From Candidatus Heimdallarchaeota archaeon (GTDB lineage Archaea; Asgardarchaeota; Heimdallarchaeia; Heimdallarchaeales; Kariarchaeaceae): a stretch of 47,146 nt of DNA. The stretch lies in assembly GCA_015523565.1 (NCBI GenBank), contig WAKA01000009.1:1-47146 (forward strand), in the 5' to 3' direction. A program made the translations under genes and the position numbers. The notes below the pieces were generated by a model that ran no database searches, was not told the DNA's origin, and saw only the letters and a list, made by a program, of their open reading frames with translations. Positions 13,993 through 45,386 of the stretch are shown in pieces (the first letter of the stretch is position 1; each line of letters starts with the position of its first letter).

Positions 13993-15384
13993 TTAATTTC
14001 TTCTTCTCTTAAAGTGGACTATTGTTGCGAAACTGAACAAGGTGACCAATGCAAGGTAAAGTCCAAATCCAGGTCCTTCTTTTGCTTTTACAGGTGAAAA
14101 TGAGGGTGTTTCTGTGACACCACCAGGCCATGTGATGGTTCCTGTAATTGACATTCCTGAGGTTTCGTCCCATGAGCCAACTACTGCAAACTTGTCTCCC
14201 TGCAGGTTCACAATGTCATAAAGTGCGTTCCTGTCTCCCTGTGAGTTGAAGGTGACATGTCCTGTTGCTCCCATGAAGTCAGTCTTCTTCAATTCAGCAA
14301 GCAAAAGATCACCGTCATTGTAATCCTTGCTGTCCTTTACCAACCTTTCAATTGCATAGGCAAAAGCAAAGACTGCGTCATATGCAAAGCTTGCATAGGT
14401 GTTGGGTGTTCTGTCACCACACCCTGTGTATGTGTTATTGTCCTTGCCATTGCATGTTTCCCACAAATCAAGGAATGCATCGTGAGTTGGACCACTGCCT
14501 CTGTTTGGTGCAGTTCCAATCATTCCTTGCATGTTATCCTTGACTGTTTGGTCGACCGTGCCGTCATCATTCTCGAAGACACCTTCTTGTGTGGGTCCAT
14601 CTGTACCAATCCATACATAGTCTTTTCCAACAAGTCCGACATCGCCTGCTTGGGAGAACACAGTCTTTGCATCACCAACGATGGTGTTCAAGACAATGAC
14701 ATGTGCTCCAGAATCCTTAATTGCCTGCAATTGGGTTTTTACGTCTGGTGCACCTTTGTCAAACCTTTGTGAACTGAGAATTTCAATTCCAAGATCTTTT
14801 GCAGTGTCTTCAACAACTGATATACCGCCTTCACCATAATCGTCAGATGTTGCCAAAGTTGCAATTTGTGTAAAACCAAGATCCTTGATGATGTTTGCAA
14901 TTGCAACTCCCTGTACTGCATCAGAGGGGACAACTCTCAAGAAGTATGGATATACTGTCTTGTTTGAAAGGTCTGGATTGGTTGATGAGTAGGAAATCTG
15001 TGGTATTTTGTTCTGTTCTGCAACAGCGGCAATGGCCTTTGAGACTGAGGATGATGCCGCTCCAACAAAACCAACAACTCCTGCTGCTGCCAATTCCTCT
15101 GCTGCTGACTTTCCAGTTGTTGGATCTGTGGCTGTGTCCTTGACAACCAATTCCAATGTGTATCCGCTGAGCAATGAGTCATTCGCATTGATGACATCAA
15201 CTGCCATTTGGGCGGCTGCTCTTCTTTCAACACCACCTGCTTGGAGCTTGCCCGTAAGTGGGAAAAGTCCACCAAGCTTAATTGTTGTGGTCTGATGAAG
15301 TTCAAGTGCTGTACCATTGCTCATTGGTGCCAACATCATCAAACCCAAAACAATTGTCAAATAAACAATGTTTCTTTTATTCAT
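13993..15384 (-). CDS. livK: Branched-chain amino acid ABC transporter substrate-binding protein with signal peptide and C-terminal PGF/TM anchor
   Basis: Start placed at MNKRNIVYLT..., preceded by GGAGGA; IKLGGLFPLTGKLQAGGVERRAAAQMAVDVIN; C-terminus EGPGFGLYLALVTLFSFATIVHFKRRRN. Confidence 0.9.
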   Translation of the reverse strand: MNKRNIVYLTIVLGLMMLAPMSNGTALELHQTTTIKLGGLFPLTGKLQAGGVERRAAAQMAVDVINANDSLLSGYTLELVVKDTATDPTTGKSAAEELAAAGVVGFVGAASSSVSKAIAAVAEQNKIPQISYSSTNPDLSNKTVYPYFLRVVPSDAVQGVAIANIIKDLGFTQIATLATSDDYGEGGISVVEDTAKDLGIEILSSQRFDKGAPDVKTQLQAIKDSGAHVIVLNTIVGDAKTVFSQAGDVGLVGKDYVWIGTDGPTQEGVFENDDGTVDQTVKDNMQGMIGTAPNRGSGPTHDAFLDLWETCNGKDNNTYTGCGDRTPNTYASFAYDAVFAFAYAIERLVKDSKDYNDGDLLLAELKKTDFMGATGHVTFNSQGDRNALYDIVNLQGDKFAVVGSWDETSGMSITGTITWPGGVTETPSFSPVKAKEGPGFGLYLALVTLFSFATIVHFKRRRN

Positions 15385-15396
15385 GTTCTTTCCTCC

Positions 15397-15460
15397 AAAT
15401 TGCAACGCTTTTTTCGCACCAACCATTCGGTTCTCGAAATGTGCTGTCGCGTTGCAATTT
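15397..15460 (-). promoter_or_regulatory. Candidate structured 5' leader or operator pair of livK (12-bp perfect inverted repeat around 40 nt)
   Basis: Minus strand AAATTGCAACGC-[GACAGCACATTTCGAGAACCGAATGGTTGGTGCGAAAAAA]-GCGTTGCAATTT, immediately followed by the GGAGGA Shine-Dalgarno. Confidence 0.65.
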
Positions 15461-15480: not shown

Positions 15481-15488
15481 CTTATAAG
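15481..15488 (-). promoter_or_regulatory. Putative TATA box of livK
   Basis: CTTATAAG; predicted TSS about 25 nt downstream falls near 15460. Confidence 0.5.
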
Positions 15489-15578: not shown

Positions 15579-15629
15579 CAATCCGAAAATCAGAATAAAA
15601 TTACATATCCCGTAAGGAGGATGATATGA

Positions 15630-16358
15630 CTGAAAGTAATAGAAACACAAAATTTGGTTAGCGGTTATGGAAAACTCCAAATCATTAATGGAGTTGACAT
15701 TGAATTGAATAAAGGGGAATTGGTTACAATAATAGGTCCAAATGGATCTGGCAAATCAACATTAGTAAAAACAATAATTGGACTTGTCCCAAGCTGGTCT
15801 GGTAAAATCATAATCAACGAAAAATTGGACATAACTGGCATGAAGCCTTATGATATTGTCACCAAACAAGTCCCAATCAACTACGTGCCACAGGTCAACA
15901 ATGTTTTCCCAACATTGACGATTGAGGAAAATCTTCTTTTGGGCGCTCTCCCCAGGAAAAAAGATCCTAAAGAGAAAATCCAAGAGGACATGGAAAAAAT
16001 CTTTGAAATTTTTCCACGGCTAAAGGAGCGGCTCTCTCAAAAAGCTGCGCTTCTTTCTGGCGGTGAAAGGCAAATGCTTGCCCTTGGCAGAGCATTGATG
16101 TCAAATCCAGACATTTTGATTTTGGATGAGCCTACAGCTGCATTAGCGCCTGTTCTTGCGGATGAAATATTCAACAAAATTATTGAACTGAAAAAACTGG
16201 GGCTAAGCATATTGCTTGTGGAACAGAGGGCAACACGTGCCTTGAAAATCAGTGACAGGGGTTATGTCTTGGTCTCTGGAAAGGTTGCTTTTGAAGACAA
16301 GGCCGAGAATCTCATAAACAATGAAAAAGTTGGAGAACTTTATTTAGGAAAGAGGTGA
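15630..16358 (+). CDS. livF: Branched-chain amino acid ABC transporter ATPase; start codon ambiguous (CTG 15630 or TTG 15654)
   Basis: GPNGSGKST, LLSGGERQMLALGRALM, ILDEPTAAL; in-frame upstream LKVIETQNLVSGYGK matches a usual LivF N-terminus. Confidence 0.85.
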   Translation: MKVIETQNLVSGYGKLQIINGVDIELNKGELVTIIGPNGSGKSTLVKTIIGLVPSWSGKIIINEKLDITGMKPYDIVTKQVPINYVPQVNNVFPTLTIEENLLLGALPRKKDPKEKIQEDMEKIFEIFPRLKERLSQKAALLSGGERQMLALGRALMSNPDILILDEPTAALAPVLADEIFNKIIELKKLGLSILLVEQRATRALKISDRGYVLVSGKVAFEDKAENLINNEKVGELYLGKR

Positions 16359-27614: not shown

Positions 27615-29645
27615 TTACACAAGGCGTTTTGACTTCCTTATGACTGTTTCATTTACCCTGTCCTTGAACAGTTCAACCATTGAATACGATGCACTTCTGA
27701 TTGCTGAAACTTCCTCCCCTTCTTTCTTGTATCCGAACACGATTTCTTCATCGTCTCTGAAGCAAGCGTACAGGTCTTTTTCCTCATAGTTATAAATTAA
27801 GATTGTCCCGAATTCCTTCGCCCTTTCCAACTCTTTTTTCCGTTTACCTGGGGGGATGTGAGTGACAATAGTCACTCTTGTACTCGGTGAATTTCTGACC
27901 AATGAAATTGCCAATCCAAACAAGGTGGAATCAAATGTCGGTGTAATTAGGGTCACTCGTCTTCTGGCTCGCAAAAGGAGATCGGTAATTGACGCATAAA
28001 TTGCAGGCAATCCGACAACAACTCCATTATCTACTGGGACTTTGATCTGGATTTTTTCCGTTGCCCTGAGAATCTTGCGAAGATCTAGGCTTCTTCCCTC
28101 AACCATTGTTTTTGCGAACTCTATTCTTTCTTTTAGAAGCAACATTGCTTCTTCCTCCTCTTTTCTCAATTGCATCAAATAGTCCTCAAGTGCGGAATGT
28201 ACTTGGGTCTCAAACAGTTCCTTCTCATTTATCCCCACCTCTTTCAGGTCTTCAATGTATTTCAATAGAATTTGCTTGGGTCTGTTGAAGGCATCAAGCA
28301 GATCCTTTTCATATGCTGCGAATGCATCATGCACGCTTTGAACCATTGCTCCTTCAATTTCCTTGAGTTGTTCCCTTACTTCATTTGTTTTTGATGCCAC
28401 CCTTTTGGTCAACCCTTTTACTTGTTCTTGAATGTCCTCCCTAAGTTTGATTAGTGATTCGTCATCTTTTTGGTTGACCTCTGTCAAAATCCCTCCTATT
28501 TTATTAAGGGTATTCTTAAACTCCTGCTTGGTTTTCAGGAGCTTATTTTGTGCATTTGTTTCAGTTGACTTGATTGCATCTTCAACCTGCCTTAATTCGT
28601 TTGGCAATTGGTTGGCAATTGGGGAAAGTTGATCTTCTGCCTTTACAAAATGTGATAGGTCTGGCTTTTCAATTAGGCTTCCAAGTTCATCGAATTTTTC
28701 CCTCGCAAGCCGTTCCAGTTGTTCTGCTTGGACAGGGTCTGCTATTGTTTCCTTGATGTTTTTAACCAATGTCTCCCTTGAAAGCAAGAGTGTTTCCATG
28801 AGCTGTGCATGTCTTTTGGTTTCCTGTTCTCTCATGCTTTTTATGTTATCAAGTGTATCCTTAATCATTTGTACATTTTTAGCTAACATTCCACTTTTTT
28901 CTTTTAGTCTTTCCAAGTTTTCACTGATGGCTCCATTTATCTCATCAAAGTGTTTTTCAGTTGTCTTGAAATAATTGCCAAGCTGAAAATGGATGTTCTT
29001 CAATAGGCTGATTCTTTCTGCCTTTCTTTTCTTGACAAATTCCAGAAGTCCATCTTCCTCCTCAGTCAATGCCAAGGTCATTTTTGTACCCGACAGTTTT
29101 GTCAACTGTTCAAGAGGAACTGCCATTTTTGTTATCTCTTCTTTTAGGATATCCCTGAAATCTTGGATTGCCTTTACGTTCTTGACAGAAATCTCGTCCA
29201 AATCATCTTGTTTGGACAAGAGTGTATCTCTTAGTGGTTCAAGCACATTGCTGTAATATGAGTCCAAGAGTTGATTTATGAACATCGGCAGAGTGACTTC
29301 TTTGATGAAATTGCGTTTTTCCTCGAGTTCCTTCTGTTTTTCATCAATTGATTCAATCAAGGATGCAAGGCTAATTATGGCCTCCCTTTCCACAGTCAGA
29401 ATCTCCCTTAAAAATGGGAAATTGGCATAATACCTCTTGATTTTTTCACCGACTACAGAAACAAGTCCAAAATCAACAAGGTCTCTTAAGGATTCCAATA
29501 CTTCTATAAGCCCTTTGTTGCCTAAGGTTTCATTTATTTCTCCGGGTGTCATCACTCCTTTTCCGATAAGGACTCCATATACTTCCTGGTCAAGCTTGTT
29601 CAGACCGAACCTGTCAAAAAACTCTGCATATATCTCTTGAGACAT
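27615..29645 (-). CDS. wHTH / long coiled-coil / TrmB-like effector-domain protein
   Basis: N-terminal wHTH-like LDQEVYGVLIGKGVMTPGEINETLG; about 430 aa of heptad-rich sequence; C-terminal ITDLLLRARRRVTLITPTFDSTLFGLAISLVRNSPSTRVTIVTHI. Confidence 0.6.
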   Translation of the reverse strand: MSQEIYAEFFDRFGLNKLDQEVYGVLIGKGVMTPGEINETLGNKGLIEVLESLRDLVDFGLVSVVGEKIKRYYANFPFLREILTVEREAIISLASLIESIDEKQKELEEKRNFIKEVTLPMFINQLLDSYYSNVLEPLRDTLLSKQDDLDEISVKNVKAIQDFRDILKEEITKMAVPLEQLTKLSGTKMTLALTEEEDGLLEFVKKRKAERISLLKNIHFQLGNYFKTTEKHFDEINGAISENLERLKEKSGMLAKNVQMIKDTLDNIKSMREQETKRHAQLMETLLLSRETLVKNIKETIADPVQAEQLERLAREKFDELGSLIEKPDLSHFVKAEDQLSPIANQLPNELRQVEDAIKSTETNAQNKLLKTKQEFKNTLNKIGGILTEVNQKDDESLIKLREDIQEQVKGLTKRVASKTNEVREQLKEIEGAMVQSVHDAFAAYEKDLLDAFNRPKQILLKYIEDLKEVGINEKELFETQVHSALEDYLMQLRKEEEEAMLLLKERIEFAKTMVEGRSLDLRKILRATEKIQIKVPVDNGVVVGLPAIYASITDLLLRARRRVTLITPTFDSTLFGLAISLVRNSPSTRVTIVTHIPPGKRKKELERAKEFGTILIYNYEEKDLYACFRDDEEIVFGYKKEGEEVSAIRSASYSMVELFKDRVNETVIRKSKRLV

Positions 29646-40493: not shown

Positions 40494-43400
40494 TTACGGA
40501 TTTGGTAGTGTTATTATATCATCCTTAACCAAAATTTTCCTGTTTGTCTCCATTTCATTCATTAACTCCTCGTAATATTGCCTGGTTTTTGGTGATAACT
40601 TGACCCCAAATATCTGTGAAGAATGTTTAATAAGTTCCTTTCTAGAAATCATCCCACCAACAGTATCTATAATAATGAGAATTGATTTTTTCACCTCTTC
40701 TGGAAACACCTCTGTGATGTTTTCATAAACATGCTCTGCAAAACGAACTTTTCCATCCCATTTCCCATAAAAATCACTGTATCCGCTTATGCTTGCCAAA
40801 TAACTTGTCAATGTTCCTAAAAATCGTTTTGTTTTGCGTTTGATATCGAATATTTCCATCATCCGTTTCATTATTACGTTCCTATGGATTGGCTGTTCAA
40901 TTGAAATGATCTTTCTTATTATATCTTTCACAAACATCTGTCTCTCAAAAAAAAGGTCTCGATGGTATTTCATATTTGATTGGAACCGCTGATATGTTTG
41001 CAGTCTCCCCATTTCAAAAAGTATCGTTCGCAAACTCTTTTGTGGTTTTTGATCTCGTGTTTTTTCAATAAATTTCAAGATTTTATCATTATTCTGCCCT
41101 ATATTGTTTGGAACTTTGTCCTCTTTTTTTGACCCTGCTTTCTCTATAAAATCCACCAGCTTTTTCAGAGTTTCTTCCTTTGATGTAAACCAATCTGTTG
41201 ACCAAAGATGATACATGTTCCAACCCAAGCTTTCTAGAAATGACGGTCGTATCTTGTCCCTGTCCCTTGGAAACCTTGAATTAAGGTACGATGGATCATC
41301 ACACTCAATTCCGACAATGTATTTGTCTGGTTGTTTTTTATTTACAATTGCAATATGTACTCTATACGCCGCATTTCCGACATAGGTCTCCACTTCATAT
41401 CCCATCTTTTGAAGGCGGCTTGCCATATTGCTGACAAACTTGCTTTTTTGAATCTCGATCATAAACCCTTCTGGCTTAAGCATTGACATATTTCCTGTTT
41501 TGGCGAATTTCATGTAAGTAATTAGCTGTTTCAATCCCTTACTGCTACTTGAACTGTCATCTATCCCCAAGGGATCAAATGAGGCAAATATCCTATTATG
41601 GTATCTTGCACGGGTGATTGCAACATTCAACCGCCTTTCTCCCCCTTTCCGATTAATGGGTCCAAAATTCAATGACATCTTCCCATCTCTGTCTGGTCCA
41701 TAGCCGACTGAAAGAAAAATGAAATCTCTTTCATCTCCCTGCATGTTCTCTAAACTTTTGATTATGATCTCCTCCTCATTCTCTTCCATTAAAGAAAAAT
41801 AGTATTCCTGCAATTCCCCTTCTTCTTCCAATCTTGTATCAAATAAGTCCTGGATTAATTCCGTTTGCGGCAAATTGAATGCAATGACTCCCAACGAATA
41901 ATATTCCCCCTTCTCCTTGCAAGATTTCAGATGGGCTATCATGTGATCCACAACTATTTCTGCTTCCTTATGGTTTACCCTCTTTCCACCCTTGTCATAA
42001 ATCCCATCAACATAGATAAAACGCAATGAGGGTTCATTCCTGCCTTTCCCTTCTCTATAAGGGTCAGGAAATGTCACCAATTGGCTGTCATAATAATGAT
42101 AATTCGAAAATGTAATCAAATTCTCCCTACGTGACCTATAATGCCATTTAAGCATTGTTTCTGGAATCCCTGCCCCCAAGAATTCCTCTAGAATGCTCTC
42201 ATAGTGGTAGTATTCCTCATCTTCTTCTTCATCATTGTCCCTCATTGTTCGAAAGAATGACGTGGGTGGCATCTGCTTTTCGTCCCCCACCATAATTACC
42301 TGTTTTCCACGGGTAATGGCTCCAATCGCATCCTCTGGCGTCACTTGTGATGCCTCATCAAAAATGACCACATCAAAGAATGAGTTGAATTCATTGCAAG
42401 GCAGATATGTCGCAATAGATAATGGGCTCATGAGAAAACATGGGGTCAGACTTGTAATGTAATTCTTGCAAAGGGAAAAAATTTCCCGCAACGGACGTAT
42501 CCGTCTTTTCTTCAATGTTTCCCTTCTCAAGATTGATTGTTCACTGGTCTTGACTAAATTCATCATCTCTCTTTTCTTCTCTTTTCTCTCCAGCCTGTCA
42601 AGTATTATGCGAACTTGATTCATCCTTATCGTCTTCTGATCTCCCTCTCTCATCCACTTAATGAACATATCTTGCTTGTTTGGCACCATTTCCTGAAGGA
42701 TCTCATCACTTTGGATAATCGACGATATGACATCTTCAAAAACCCTTTTCTTAATGATGGGCTCTAAATTCTCATTCTTTGGTGAATACGTTTCGAAACT
42801 GGAGCCGAAATAATCTGAAAGCAACCATTTCGCCTTAAAATGCTTTACCGTATCCATGAAAAAAGACTTCTGATTCAATGCCTCACTCAACAACTCATGG
42901 TAGTCTTTGTTCAGTATGGTTTCAACCCTTCTACGTTTCATCAAAACTACATGCTCCTGGAACTCCCTCAAACTCTGTTTTGTCATTTCAATCTCCTGCA
43001 TCAGTTCTTGACCATTCCGTACGAACCTTTCCATCTCCTTGACAAATTCCTCAACATCATTCAATGCAATTTCCCTTGAAATCGGAAAATAGCCCTCCAA
43101 TTCATTGAACAATGCATCCATCTCTTGATACAGGTTTAAGTAGCTTTCAAACAGGTTCGACAGTTTCCCAACCCTGTCGAAAAAACTAGGCAATCCCCTC
43201 TCTTCCTGAATCCTATACGGTATCCCGATCTTTTCCAAGGAAATGCCTCCCTCTATCCGTTTCAACACCCTTTTTGCCTTTTCCTCGAACTCTGGTTGAA
43301 GAAAATTCAATTCCAGTTTTTCAATCCCCAATCTTTCCATCTCATTCTTCAATTTACTAAACACATTCCTCTCAGGAAATACCCTGCGCATATATCTCCA

Positions 43401-45386
43401 ATGACGATAATATGCAGGTTTGAAAAAACGGCTTATCCCTTGGTACTTCTCCTCGTTTTCAATAATCTGGGTGATGTCCGCAACTAATTGCTCTGGCTTA
43501 AATGGATTGTCCCTGATAAATTCCAATACCAATTGTGCTGTTTCAACCCTTTTATCCCTCAATTTTTCAACTAAGGGCAAAATCTCACGTAAATCCCCCT
43601 GAATGGTTTTGAGCTCTTCCAATAATTGATGATAGTCACCTAGCCTCTCCAAGGAAACAACTGGGAAATCATATGAAACCTCATTTTTGATGCTCCCTCT
43701 TATCCCCTCCATTTTCCCATGGATTGTGCAGATTCTATCACTCACAACAATCTTTCTTGGCATCTGCCCCACATCAAAGGCAACCCCGTATTCCCGTTTG
43801 AATGCATCAATTGAATTGAGTGTATGCCCCAACCTTTGAAAAAGTGCCTCTAGGCTCTTTACAATTGCCTTTGCATCCATCTCCCTAAAATACTTGATAC
43901 CCAAATCCTTGAACAAATTTTCCTGATCGTTCACATATCCTGTGCTGGAATAATCCCTTGCCGCCGCAAAAATCGACATCATCTCGGTTTTGCTCCTCGG
44001 AACCCGCAAAACCCTTAATTCAAAGTCATCATAGTGCTCCAATTCAGAATACATCCCGATCATGTCATACAATGTCCAATCATCAATCATTCCCCGACGA
44101 CCAATTCTTTCCAGATATGCCTCCATTTTTTGCATGGTTCTGTCCAATGCCCGATAAATGTCATCACTGATCGGTGGATGGTTCACAGCAAGCCGCTCCA
44201 CACGCGCTAAAGTATCCAAGACCTCCTTCTTGTTCGACAAATGGGAATGCAACTCAAGACAAAAATGCCCCAAATTCACCTGATCCAACCTTGACTTTAC
44301 AACTTTCAATGCGGCCATCTTTTGAGACACAAACAGAACACGCTTGTCCCTGGCAATGAACTCTGCAATGATGTTTGCAATTGTCTGGCTCTTCCCAGTT
44401 CCCGGCGGTCCGCGAATCACCATTGATTTTCCTTCCAACGCATTGTGAATGGCAATCATCTGGGATGAATCGGCATCCAGCACTATATGCCGACTGTATG
44501 ACGGCATTCTCACAAGATCCCCCTCAAAGATTTTCTGCAGGACTATAGGTTCCTTCTCAATCATTGCCAACCTGCGGACAATCGGATGGTTGGCAAACAC
44601 ATCCAACTCATCCATTTCCTTGTATAGAGATATTCTACTGAAACTGAAAAGATCCAAAAAAACCTTGTCCATGATCTCCCATTCCCCCATGCCCGGCGCT
44701 TTTTCCAGATGCGCCCTTATCTTCTCAACATAGCCACGGTAGGTGTCCCCCTCCATGAATGGCGGTAGCTTAACCCCATAGTCCAACTTCAATCTTTCCG
44801 ATAATGACTCATTGACCACAGTCTCATCCTCATCCTTTAGTCGCAAGGAATATTGCTGGTATGGACGATTGTACAGCAACTCAACTTGCACAAACACCAA
44901 CGGAGAGAAGTTTACCTTTCCCTTGTCTGGCTCTTTCCACTTGAGAAGACCAAATGCCAAATACATCACATGAATCCCGCGATCACGCAACATTGTTTGG
45001 TTTCTCGCATTCAATCTCTTCAATTGCCGCCTCAAATCTTCATCCATCTGGTTGGTGATCAACGAAAACGGTGGAAGATCACTTCTCAAAGCCTCAACCT
45101 TCTGCATGTGTTGTCGCTTGATGTGTTCCCTCCTTTCTTCCTCCTTCAACCCCTCTGTTTCCTCAGGAGTAGGGGAATAGACTGGAATGAACTTCATGCT
45201 CTCATCCGCAAGCATCTTTCCGAAAAGAATTTCCGCACTTGGAGCAACAATCTCCACCCTTCTCTTCCGCAACGGATTATAATAAATCTGGGGGTTTCTT
45301 CGACTCAAGTCAAGCAAACGGCGTTTCCAATCCCTAAGCTTTTTCAAAAGAACTTGGTAGTTGTCATCCCTCTCAAACATATTCAA
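40494..45386 (-). CDS. Large SF1 helicase with DUF4011 N-terminus, MTES_1575-like REase-fold segment and DUF3320-like C-terminus
   Basis: LRDWKRRLLDLSRRNPQIYYNP; Walker A VIRGPPGTGKSQTIANII; VIFDEASQVTPEDAIG..VGDEKQMPPTSFF; NVAITRARY; VGIECDDPSYLNSRFPRDRDKIRPSFLESLGWNMYHLWSTDWF. Confidence 0.88.
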   Translation of the reverse strand: MNMFERDDNYQVLLKKLRDWKRRLLDLSRRNPQIYYNPLRKRRVEIVAPSAEILFGKMLADESMKFIPVYSPTPEETEGLKEEERREHIKRQHMQKVEALRSDLPPFSLITNQMDEDLRRQLKRLNARNQTMLRDRGIHVMYLAFGLLKWKEPDKGKVNFSPLVFVQVELLYNRPYQQYSLRLKDEDETVVNESLSERLKLDYGVKLPPFMEGDTYRGYVEKIRAHLEKAPGMGEWEIMDKVFLDLFSFSRISLYKEMDELDVFANHPIVRRLAMIEKEPIVLQKIFEGDLVRMPSYSRHIVLDADSSQMIAIHNALEGKSMVIRGPPGTGKSQTIANIIAEFIARDKRVLFVSQKMAALKVVKSRLDQVNLGHFCLELHSHLSNKKEVLDTLARVERLAVNHPPISDDIYRALDRTMQKMEAYLERIGRRGMIDDWTLYDMIGMYSELEHYDDFELRVLRVPRSKTEMMSIFAAARDYSSTGYVNDQENLFKDLGIKYFREMDAKAIVKSLEALFQRLGHTLNSIDAFKREYGVAFDVGQMPRKIVVSDRICTIHGKMEGIRGSIKNEVSYDFPVVSLERLGDYHQLLEELKTIQGDLREILPLVEKLRDKRVETAQLVLEFIRDNPFKPEQLVADITQIIENEEKYQGISRFFKPAYYRHWRYMRRVFPERNVFSKLKNEMERLGIEKLELNFLQPEFEEKAKRVLKRIEGGISLEKIGIPYRIQEERGLPSFFDRVGKLSNLFESYLNLYQEMDALFNELEGYFPISREIALNDVEEFVKEMERFVRNGQELMQEIEMTKQSLREFQEHVVLMKRRRVETILNKDYHELLSEALNQKSFFMDTVKHFKAKWLLSDYFGSSFETYSPKNENLEPIIKKRVFEDVISSIIQSDEILQEMVPNKQDMFIKWMREGDQKTIRMNQVRIILDRLERKEKKREMMNLVKTSEQSILRRETLKKRRIRPLREIFSLCKNYITSLTPCFLMSPLSIATYLPCNEFNSFFDVVIFDEASQVTPEDAIGAITRGKQVIMVGDEKQMPPTSFFRTMRDNDEEEDEEYYHYESILEEFLGAGIPETMLKWHYRSRRENLITFSNYHYYDSQLVTFPDPYREGKGRNEPSLRFIYVDGIYDKGGKRVNHKEAEIVVDHMIAHLKSCKEKGEYYSLGVIAFNLPQTELIQDLFDTRLEEEGELQEYYFSLMEENEEEIIIKSLENMQGDERDFIFLSVGYGPDRDGKMSLNFGPINRKGGERRLNVAITRARYHNRIFASFDPLGIDDSSSSSKGLKQLITYMKFAKTGNMSMLKPEGFMIEIQKSKFVSNMASRLQKMGYEVETYVGNAAYRVHIAIVNKKQPDKYIVGIECDDPSYLNSRFPRDRDKIRPSFLESLGWNMYHLWSTDWFTSKEETLKKLVDFIEKAGSKKEDKVPNNIGQNNDKILKFIEKTRDQKPQKSLRTILFEMGRLQTYQRFQSNMKYHRDLFFERQMFVKDIIRKIISIEQPIHRNVIMKRMMEIFDIKRKTKRFLGTLTSYLASISGYSDFYGKWDGKVRFAEHVYENITEVFPEEVKKSILIIIDTVGGMISRKELIKHSSQIFGVKLSPKTRQYYEELMNEMETNRKILVKDDIITLPNP

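Follow-up and report, generated by a model that had tools for sequence, protein, structure and literature searches.

Stem-loops at the 5' terminus of bacterial mRNAs counteract decay (PMC3792030), and RppH of Bacillus requires unpaired 5' nucleotides (PMC3997798). The latter source also cites 5' stems that stabilise mRNA, those of Escherichia coli ompA and papA and of Bacillus subtilis aprE. These stems lie at the 5' end or a few nucleotides from it, with the Shine-Dalgarno (SD) sequence downstream. Their structure matters rather than their sequence, and each belongs to a gene whose product is abundant and either exported or part of the envelope. The archaeal livK leader described here, as predicted, appears to resemble them in all these respects. 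In archaea, aCPSF2 carries out 5'-3' decay, and aIF2-gamma at the triphosphate of the 5' end opposes such decay by beta-CASP exonucleases (PMC3792030). The 5' UTR of Methanolobus psychrophilus hsp20 buries its ribosome-binding site (RBS) and, like the livK leader, has a predicted stem-loop beside it (PMC5378194). In hsp20, however, the RBS lies within the stem and there are alternative transcription start sites (TSSs), whereas the SD of livK lies just outside the stem.

The window, that is the whole 47,146-nt stretch analysed here, lies on contig C9 of a Candidatus Heimdallarchaeota genome of 3.57 Mb. On its minus strand, livK (P0001; 13993–15384, start codon ATG at 15384–15382) encodes a branched-chain amino-acid-type solute-binding protein (SBP) of 463 aa, whose N-terminus resembles a signal peptide. 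Genes for an ABC ATPase and a BPD_transp_2 permease diverge from it, beginning at about 15630. Upstream of livK, the minus strand reads in order the TATA box CTTATAAG (15481–15488), 20 nt, the left (5') arm AAATTGCAACGC (15449–15460), 40 nt, the right (3') arm GCGTTGCAATTT (15397–15408), the adjoining SD GGAGG (15392–15396), and the ATG. Each arm contains the palindrome TTGCAA. Adding 26.5 nt to the centre of the TATA box predicts the TSS at 15458, and TATA-like boxes lie equally far before the left arm in the orthologues. We infer that transcription of livK starts where the left arm does, give or take about 3 nt.

The two arms (15460–15449 with 15408–15397) pair perfectly over 12 bp. Folding of the RNA from 15460 to 15384 returned this stem together with an inner helix (15416–15444, minus strand), in which GCAC (15444–15441) pairs with GTGC (15419–15416) and TTCG (15438–15435) with CGAA (15429–15426). 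The predicted energy is -23.3 kcal/mol. Dinucleotide shuffles of the same segment have a mean of -14.1 (sd 2.6), which gives a z of -3.57, and 0 of 200 shuffles were as good. The earlier note had given the arms, the 40-nt loop, the adjoining GGAGG, the ATG and the TATA box at exactly these positions, and had described a structured leader with a stem that starts at the predicted +1 and closes before the SD. Its description holds, and in relatives the pairing is retained despite complete turnover of the arms.

Such a stem is rare. Perfect inverted repeats of at least 12 bp with a loop of at most 60 occur twice in the window, against 0.25 expected under a first-order Markov model. Rarity among leaders was assessed on about 1.3 Mb of contigs from the window genome and four relatives, with SD-bearing genes called by a simple script. 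Each gene was scored by its best perfect stem with the 3' arm ending at most 1 nt from the SD, counting 2 for A-T and 3 for G-C. With a score of 29, livK ranks first among 681 genes of the five family genomes, and a score of at least 16 is reached by 14 of them. Within the window genome (G000), the next-best of 364 genes with an SD scores 16. The mean pairing probability of GGAGG, with 30 nt of coding sequence included, is 0.27, the 43rd lowest of 492. Across the orthologues, SD pairing is low in G000 (0.27) and G001 (0.14) and is predicted to be high in G002 and G005. No such stem was found before the SBP_bac_5 genes of the sampled contigs or before the two livK paralogues examined in the window genome, which rules out a general trait of solute-binding-protein leaders.

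Close livK orthologues are confined to the class of the window among the 228 phylum genomes searched. In the same family, the livK leader reads AGGCAC..GTGCCT followed by GGAG in G001, TTGTTC..GAACAA followed by GGTGA in G002, and TTAACAAT..ATTGTTAA followed by GGTGA in G005. The left arms of the four orthologues, AAATTGCAACGC, AGGCAC, TTGTTC and TTAACAAT, are unrelated in sequence. In G001, G002 and G005, the centre of a TATA-like octamer plus 26.5 nt falls at most 2 nt from where the left arm begins. G002 has another TATA-like site that outscores the one used for the +1 stem. The fifth leader, of G007, has no clear SD and contains two hairpins, TTTTCGA/TCGAAAA at the predicted +1 and a second just ahead of the start region. 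Classical covariation statistics are impossible within the family, because there are only five leaders and their arms are too diverged to align. TTCGA (15434–15438, minus strand) is common to all five, and they share no other 5-mer. Any shared 5-mer arises in 0.5% of shuffled leader sets, and one with at least two G/C in 0.04%. At the level of the order, the leaders of the two orthologues G010 and G013 are short and lack structure, which indicates that the feature is dispensable.

A stem near the predicted TSS is by itself unremarkable. It begins there in 5/5 family leaders and in five sister-family leaders, and 11.6% of background leaders match the score of the weakest orthologue. We then required jointly a perfect stem reaching from the TATA-predicted +1 (within 3 nt) to the SD (within 1 nt); a fixed TATA consensus was used, since a matrix learned from the data had drifted to coding bias. 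This combination was found in 8 of 495 genes, namely every livK orthologue whose SD was recognised (four: G000, G001, G002 and G005) and 4 of the 491 others, of which at least two resemble genes with wrong start codons. A stricter setting (score of at least 16, within 2 nt) left three genes, all livK (G000, G001 and G005). Shuffling each leader of the three non-discovery orthologues gave p = 0.0018, 0.0095 and 0.0033 (Fisher 9e-6, or 5e-5 once G007 is counted as a failure), values that are optimistic because the joint criterion was framed after the leaders were inspected.

Five livK leaders of a sister family (L038, L051, L039, L040 and L041) have a kept +1 stem of their own, TATCTCGG / CCGAGATCAA. 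It starts 2 nt past the predicted +1, where ATCTCGG (or ATCTTGG) pairs with CCGAGAT (or CCAAGAT) located 48–63 nt downstream. The arms are near-invariant (ATTATCTCGG / CCGAGATCAA), and the loops vary and align poorly. One compensatory exchange, C-G to U-A, is seen in the stem, and this single covarying pair is not above shuffles (102/500). An RNA model of the sister-family element, run against 59 genomes of the class, found its five training loci and otherwise weak matches with E > 0.02. The element thus occurs nowhere else in those genomes, and the elements of the two families are not detectably homologous.

Taken together, the complementarity and the anchors at the +1 and the SD are kept, and these are meaningful only in a transcript. 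We therefore favour RNA structure for the outer stem, on the ground that pairing and anchoring persist where the sequence is lost. We are fairly confident that the livK leader element exists as an RNA element.

As to its function, we propose a constitutive, 5'-terminal hairpin like that of ompA, which would protect the message and present the SD, and we hold this reading with even confidence. The proposal follows from a paired 5' end with the SD right after it, which is the ompA-type geometry, from the existence of 5'-3' decay in archaea, and from the three beta-CASP proteins, of the group of archaeal 5'-3' exonucleases, that the window genome encodes. The hairpin would occupy the entire livK leader, with the transcript starting where the stem does or within 2–3 nt of that point, and the stem would close on the base preceding the SD. 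A paired 5' end would deny single-stranded entry to 5'-end-dependent decay enzymes. Meanwhile, packing of the leader in a helix would leave the SD and the start codon exposed, with no upstream sequence to pair with. Such a constitutive leader would raise expression, and livK, as its own transcription unit, could outyield the divergent transporter genes. What the analysis establishes is the hairpin as a computed fold, its rarity, and its recurrence from predicted +1 to SD in livK orthologues whose arms are unrelated; we infer the TSS, the folding in the cell, any stabilisation or gain in translation, and the argument from stoichiometry.

The assignment of the livK leader to the ompA type is made by geometry, and the leader may work in the same way. 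Pairing is conserved and sequence is free, as expected of that type: the four orthologues have unrelated arm pairs in equivalent positions. In contrast to ompA, papA and aprE, livK has an archaeal promoter and archaeal decay (beta-CASP nucleases and 5' protection by aIF2-gamma) rather than RppH and RNase E. In addition, one hairpin fills its whole leader and adjoins the SD, and its effect on stability is a prediction.

An alternative is that the hairpin is regulatory, the leader being the target of an RNA-binding protein or a metabolite (at the apical UUCGA, for instance) that alters the translation or decay of livK. The presence of TTCGA in all five family leaders would suit such a site, as would the restriction of the element to livK. 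In the sister family, the arms ATTATCTCGG / CCGAGATCAA are near-invariant beyond the needs of pairing, and their sequence may be read. However, beyond TTCGA as the sole shared 5-mer there is no conserved aptamer-like core, and the elements of the two families are unlike each other. An Rfam scan of the livK locus gave no match up to E=1. We found no alternative fold that masks the SD: in G000 the SD is mostly open in both the minimum-free-energy structure and the ensemble, and no anti-SD run was seen by eye. These results make a sensor or riboswitch unlikely, and we regard regulation through the hairpin as possible but improbable. Among the functions that the earlier note had listed, a 5'-stabilising or translation-promoting hairpin fits the data, and a translation switch or an amino-acid sensor does not. 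The inside of the hairpin may nevertheless hold a protein site, in DNA or RNA.

The inverted repeats could instead act as DNA, with a repressor resembling Lrp/AsnC or TrmB bound as a dimer or oligomer between the +1 and the SD and controlling livK, perhaps together with livF. Lrp/AsnC-type operators are palindromes, as in the archaeal Ptr2 and Ss-LrpB sites. Resemblance to them is seen in the TTGCAA palindrome of the livK arms and in a 13-bp TCCGA-N3-TCAGA site at livF. Several leaders also carry inner TTCG..CGAA dyads. In G000 and G007 the divergent promoter, that of livF, contains TTTTCG/CGAAAA words, and in G000 and G001 a near-palindrome TCCGANNNTCAGA adjoins the livF TATA box. On the other hand, unlike such operators, the livK arms are conserved neither in sequence nor in spacing nor in copy number, and they mark no regulon. 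The outer arms are unrelated between congeners, and the distances between arm centres (52, 47, 42 and 28 bp in the family orthologues) are not in helical phase. When orthologous promoters were compared for a conserved site, only the livF site, which stands apart, and TTCGA inside the hairpin showed conservation.

The arms were also searched for as operator sites across the genome, as the earlier note had envisaged, and they do not recur paired in intergenic DNA. The window genome contains one further exact copy, outside any inverted pair. Copies with at most one mismatch are mostly coding, and no second intergenic dyad built from these arms was found, about 0.68 Mb of the 3.57-Mb genome having been examined for context. 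The arms were accordingly rejected as the mark of a regulon. That neither spacing nor arm sequence is kept and no regulon is marked argues against a plain operator in the outer arms; nor does an operator give a reason for anchoring at both the +1 and the SD. We consider a DNA operator improbable, slightly more so than regulation through RNA. The operator pair that the earlier note had offered as its alternative is thus disfavoured for the 12-bp arms. The inner TTCG/CGAA element may yet be such a site, since similar TTTTCG words lie in the livF promoter.

Chance would require one leader with a long perfect inverted repeat and ordinary stems in the rest. Stems of 6–8 bp are indeed common in A+T-rich leaders, and 6.6% of the genes score at least 14. 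The joint anchoring in 4/4 orthologues and 4/491 other genes, together with the shuffle p-values, makes this explanation very unlikely. Leader-peptide attenuation or uORF control, through an in-frame ATG in the G000 loop (15426) that in G001 opens a 10-codon uORF ending before livK, was rejected as most improbable, since this ATG has no SD and is not conserved, no run of branched-chain codons follows, the frame is not kept in G002, and there is no terminator-like alternative.

More broadly, but with little confidence, we speculate that the hairpin represents a gene-specific leader type used by Asgard archaea of this class on the mRNA of an abundant amino-acid-binding protein. This type would be defined by a single hairpin that spans the +1 to the SD and has UUCGA marking its apex, by complete turnover of the arm sequences and by a gain in another form in the sister family, and it would be read by an RNA-binding protein or a decay enzyme as a new archaeal class of cis-acting 5' element. 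Confirmation of the livK element would link the structure of mRNA 5' ends to transcript lifetime or translation in those archaea that stand nearest to eukaryotes. To our knowledge, little has been documented on archaeal hairpins that stabilise 5' ends, and our literature search found nothing direct on leader hairpins of SBP genes in Asgard or other archaea. Sequence profiles will hardly detect an element that keeps its shape and both anchors while its letters change, which suggests scoring stems between the TATA-predicted +1 and the SD.

In the livF promoter, the near-palindrome TCCGAAAATCAGA (15582–15594, plus strand) lies just downstream of the TATA box, and TCCGAATTTCAGA occupies the equivalent place in G001. 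TCCGAAAATCAGA, the sole intergenic TCYGANNNTCRGA in the sampled part of the window genome, is a candidate operator for the divergently transcribed transporter genes and may be related to the inner TTCG/CGAA element. The livF promoter of G007 (L150 10697–10730) reads TGATTTTCG-TATATAAAAA-CGAATTTCGAAAC, where a TATA-like sequence is enclosed by an inverted repeat that resembles the inner part of the livK leaders. The livF frame (15621–15656) of the window has no ATG at the expected place, where G001 has one, and TGA (15627–15629) precedes CTG 15630. The start of livF may be CTG 15630, TTG 15654, or ATG 15626 by way of a small indel.

Elsewhere in the window, a 676-aa protein (27615–29645) carries an N-terminal TrmB-like HTH just under the Pfam cut-off and is a possible regulator. 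A 1630-aa protein (40494–45386) with DUF4011, a split AAA helicase, an MTES_1575 nuclease and DUF3320 resembles a defence-type helicase-nuclease. In keeping with an Asgard host, the window also encodes an eEF1A-like elongation factor, and the tandem Snf7/ESCRT-III genes of the window genome score above their Pfam cut-off.
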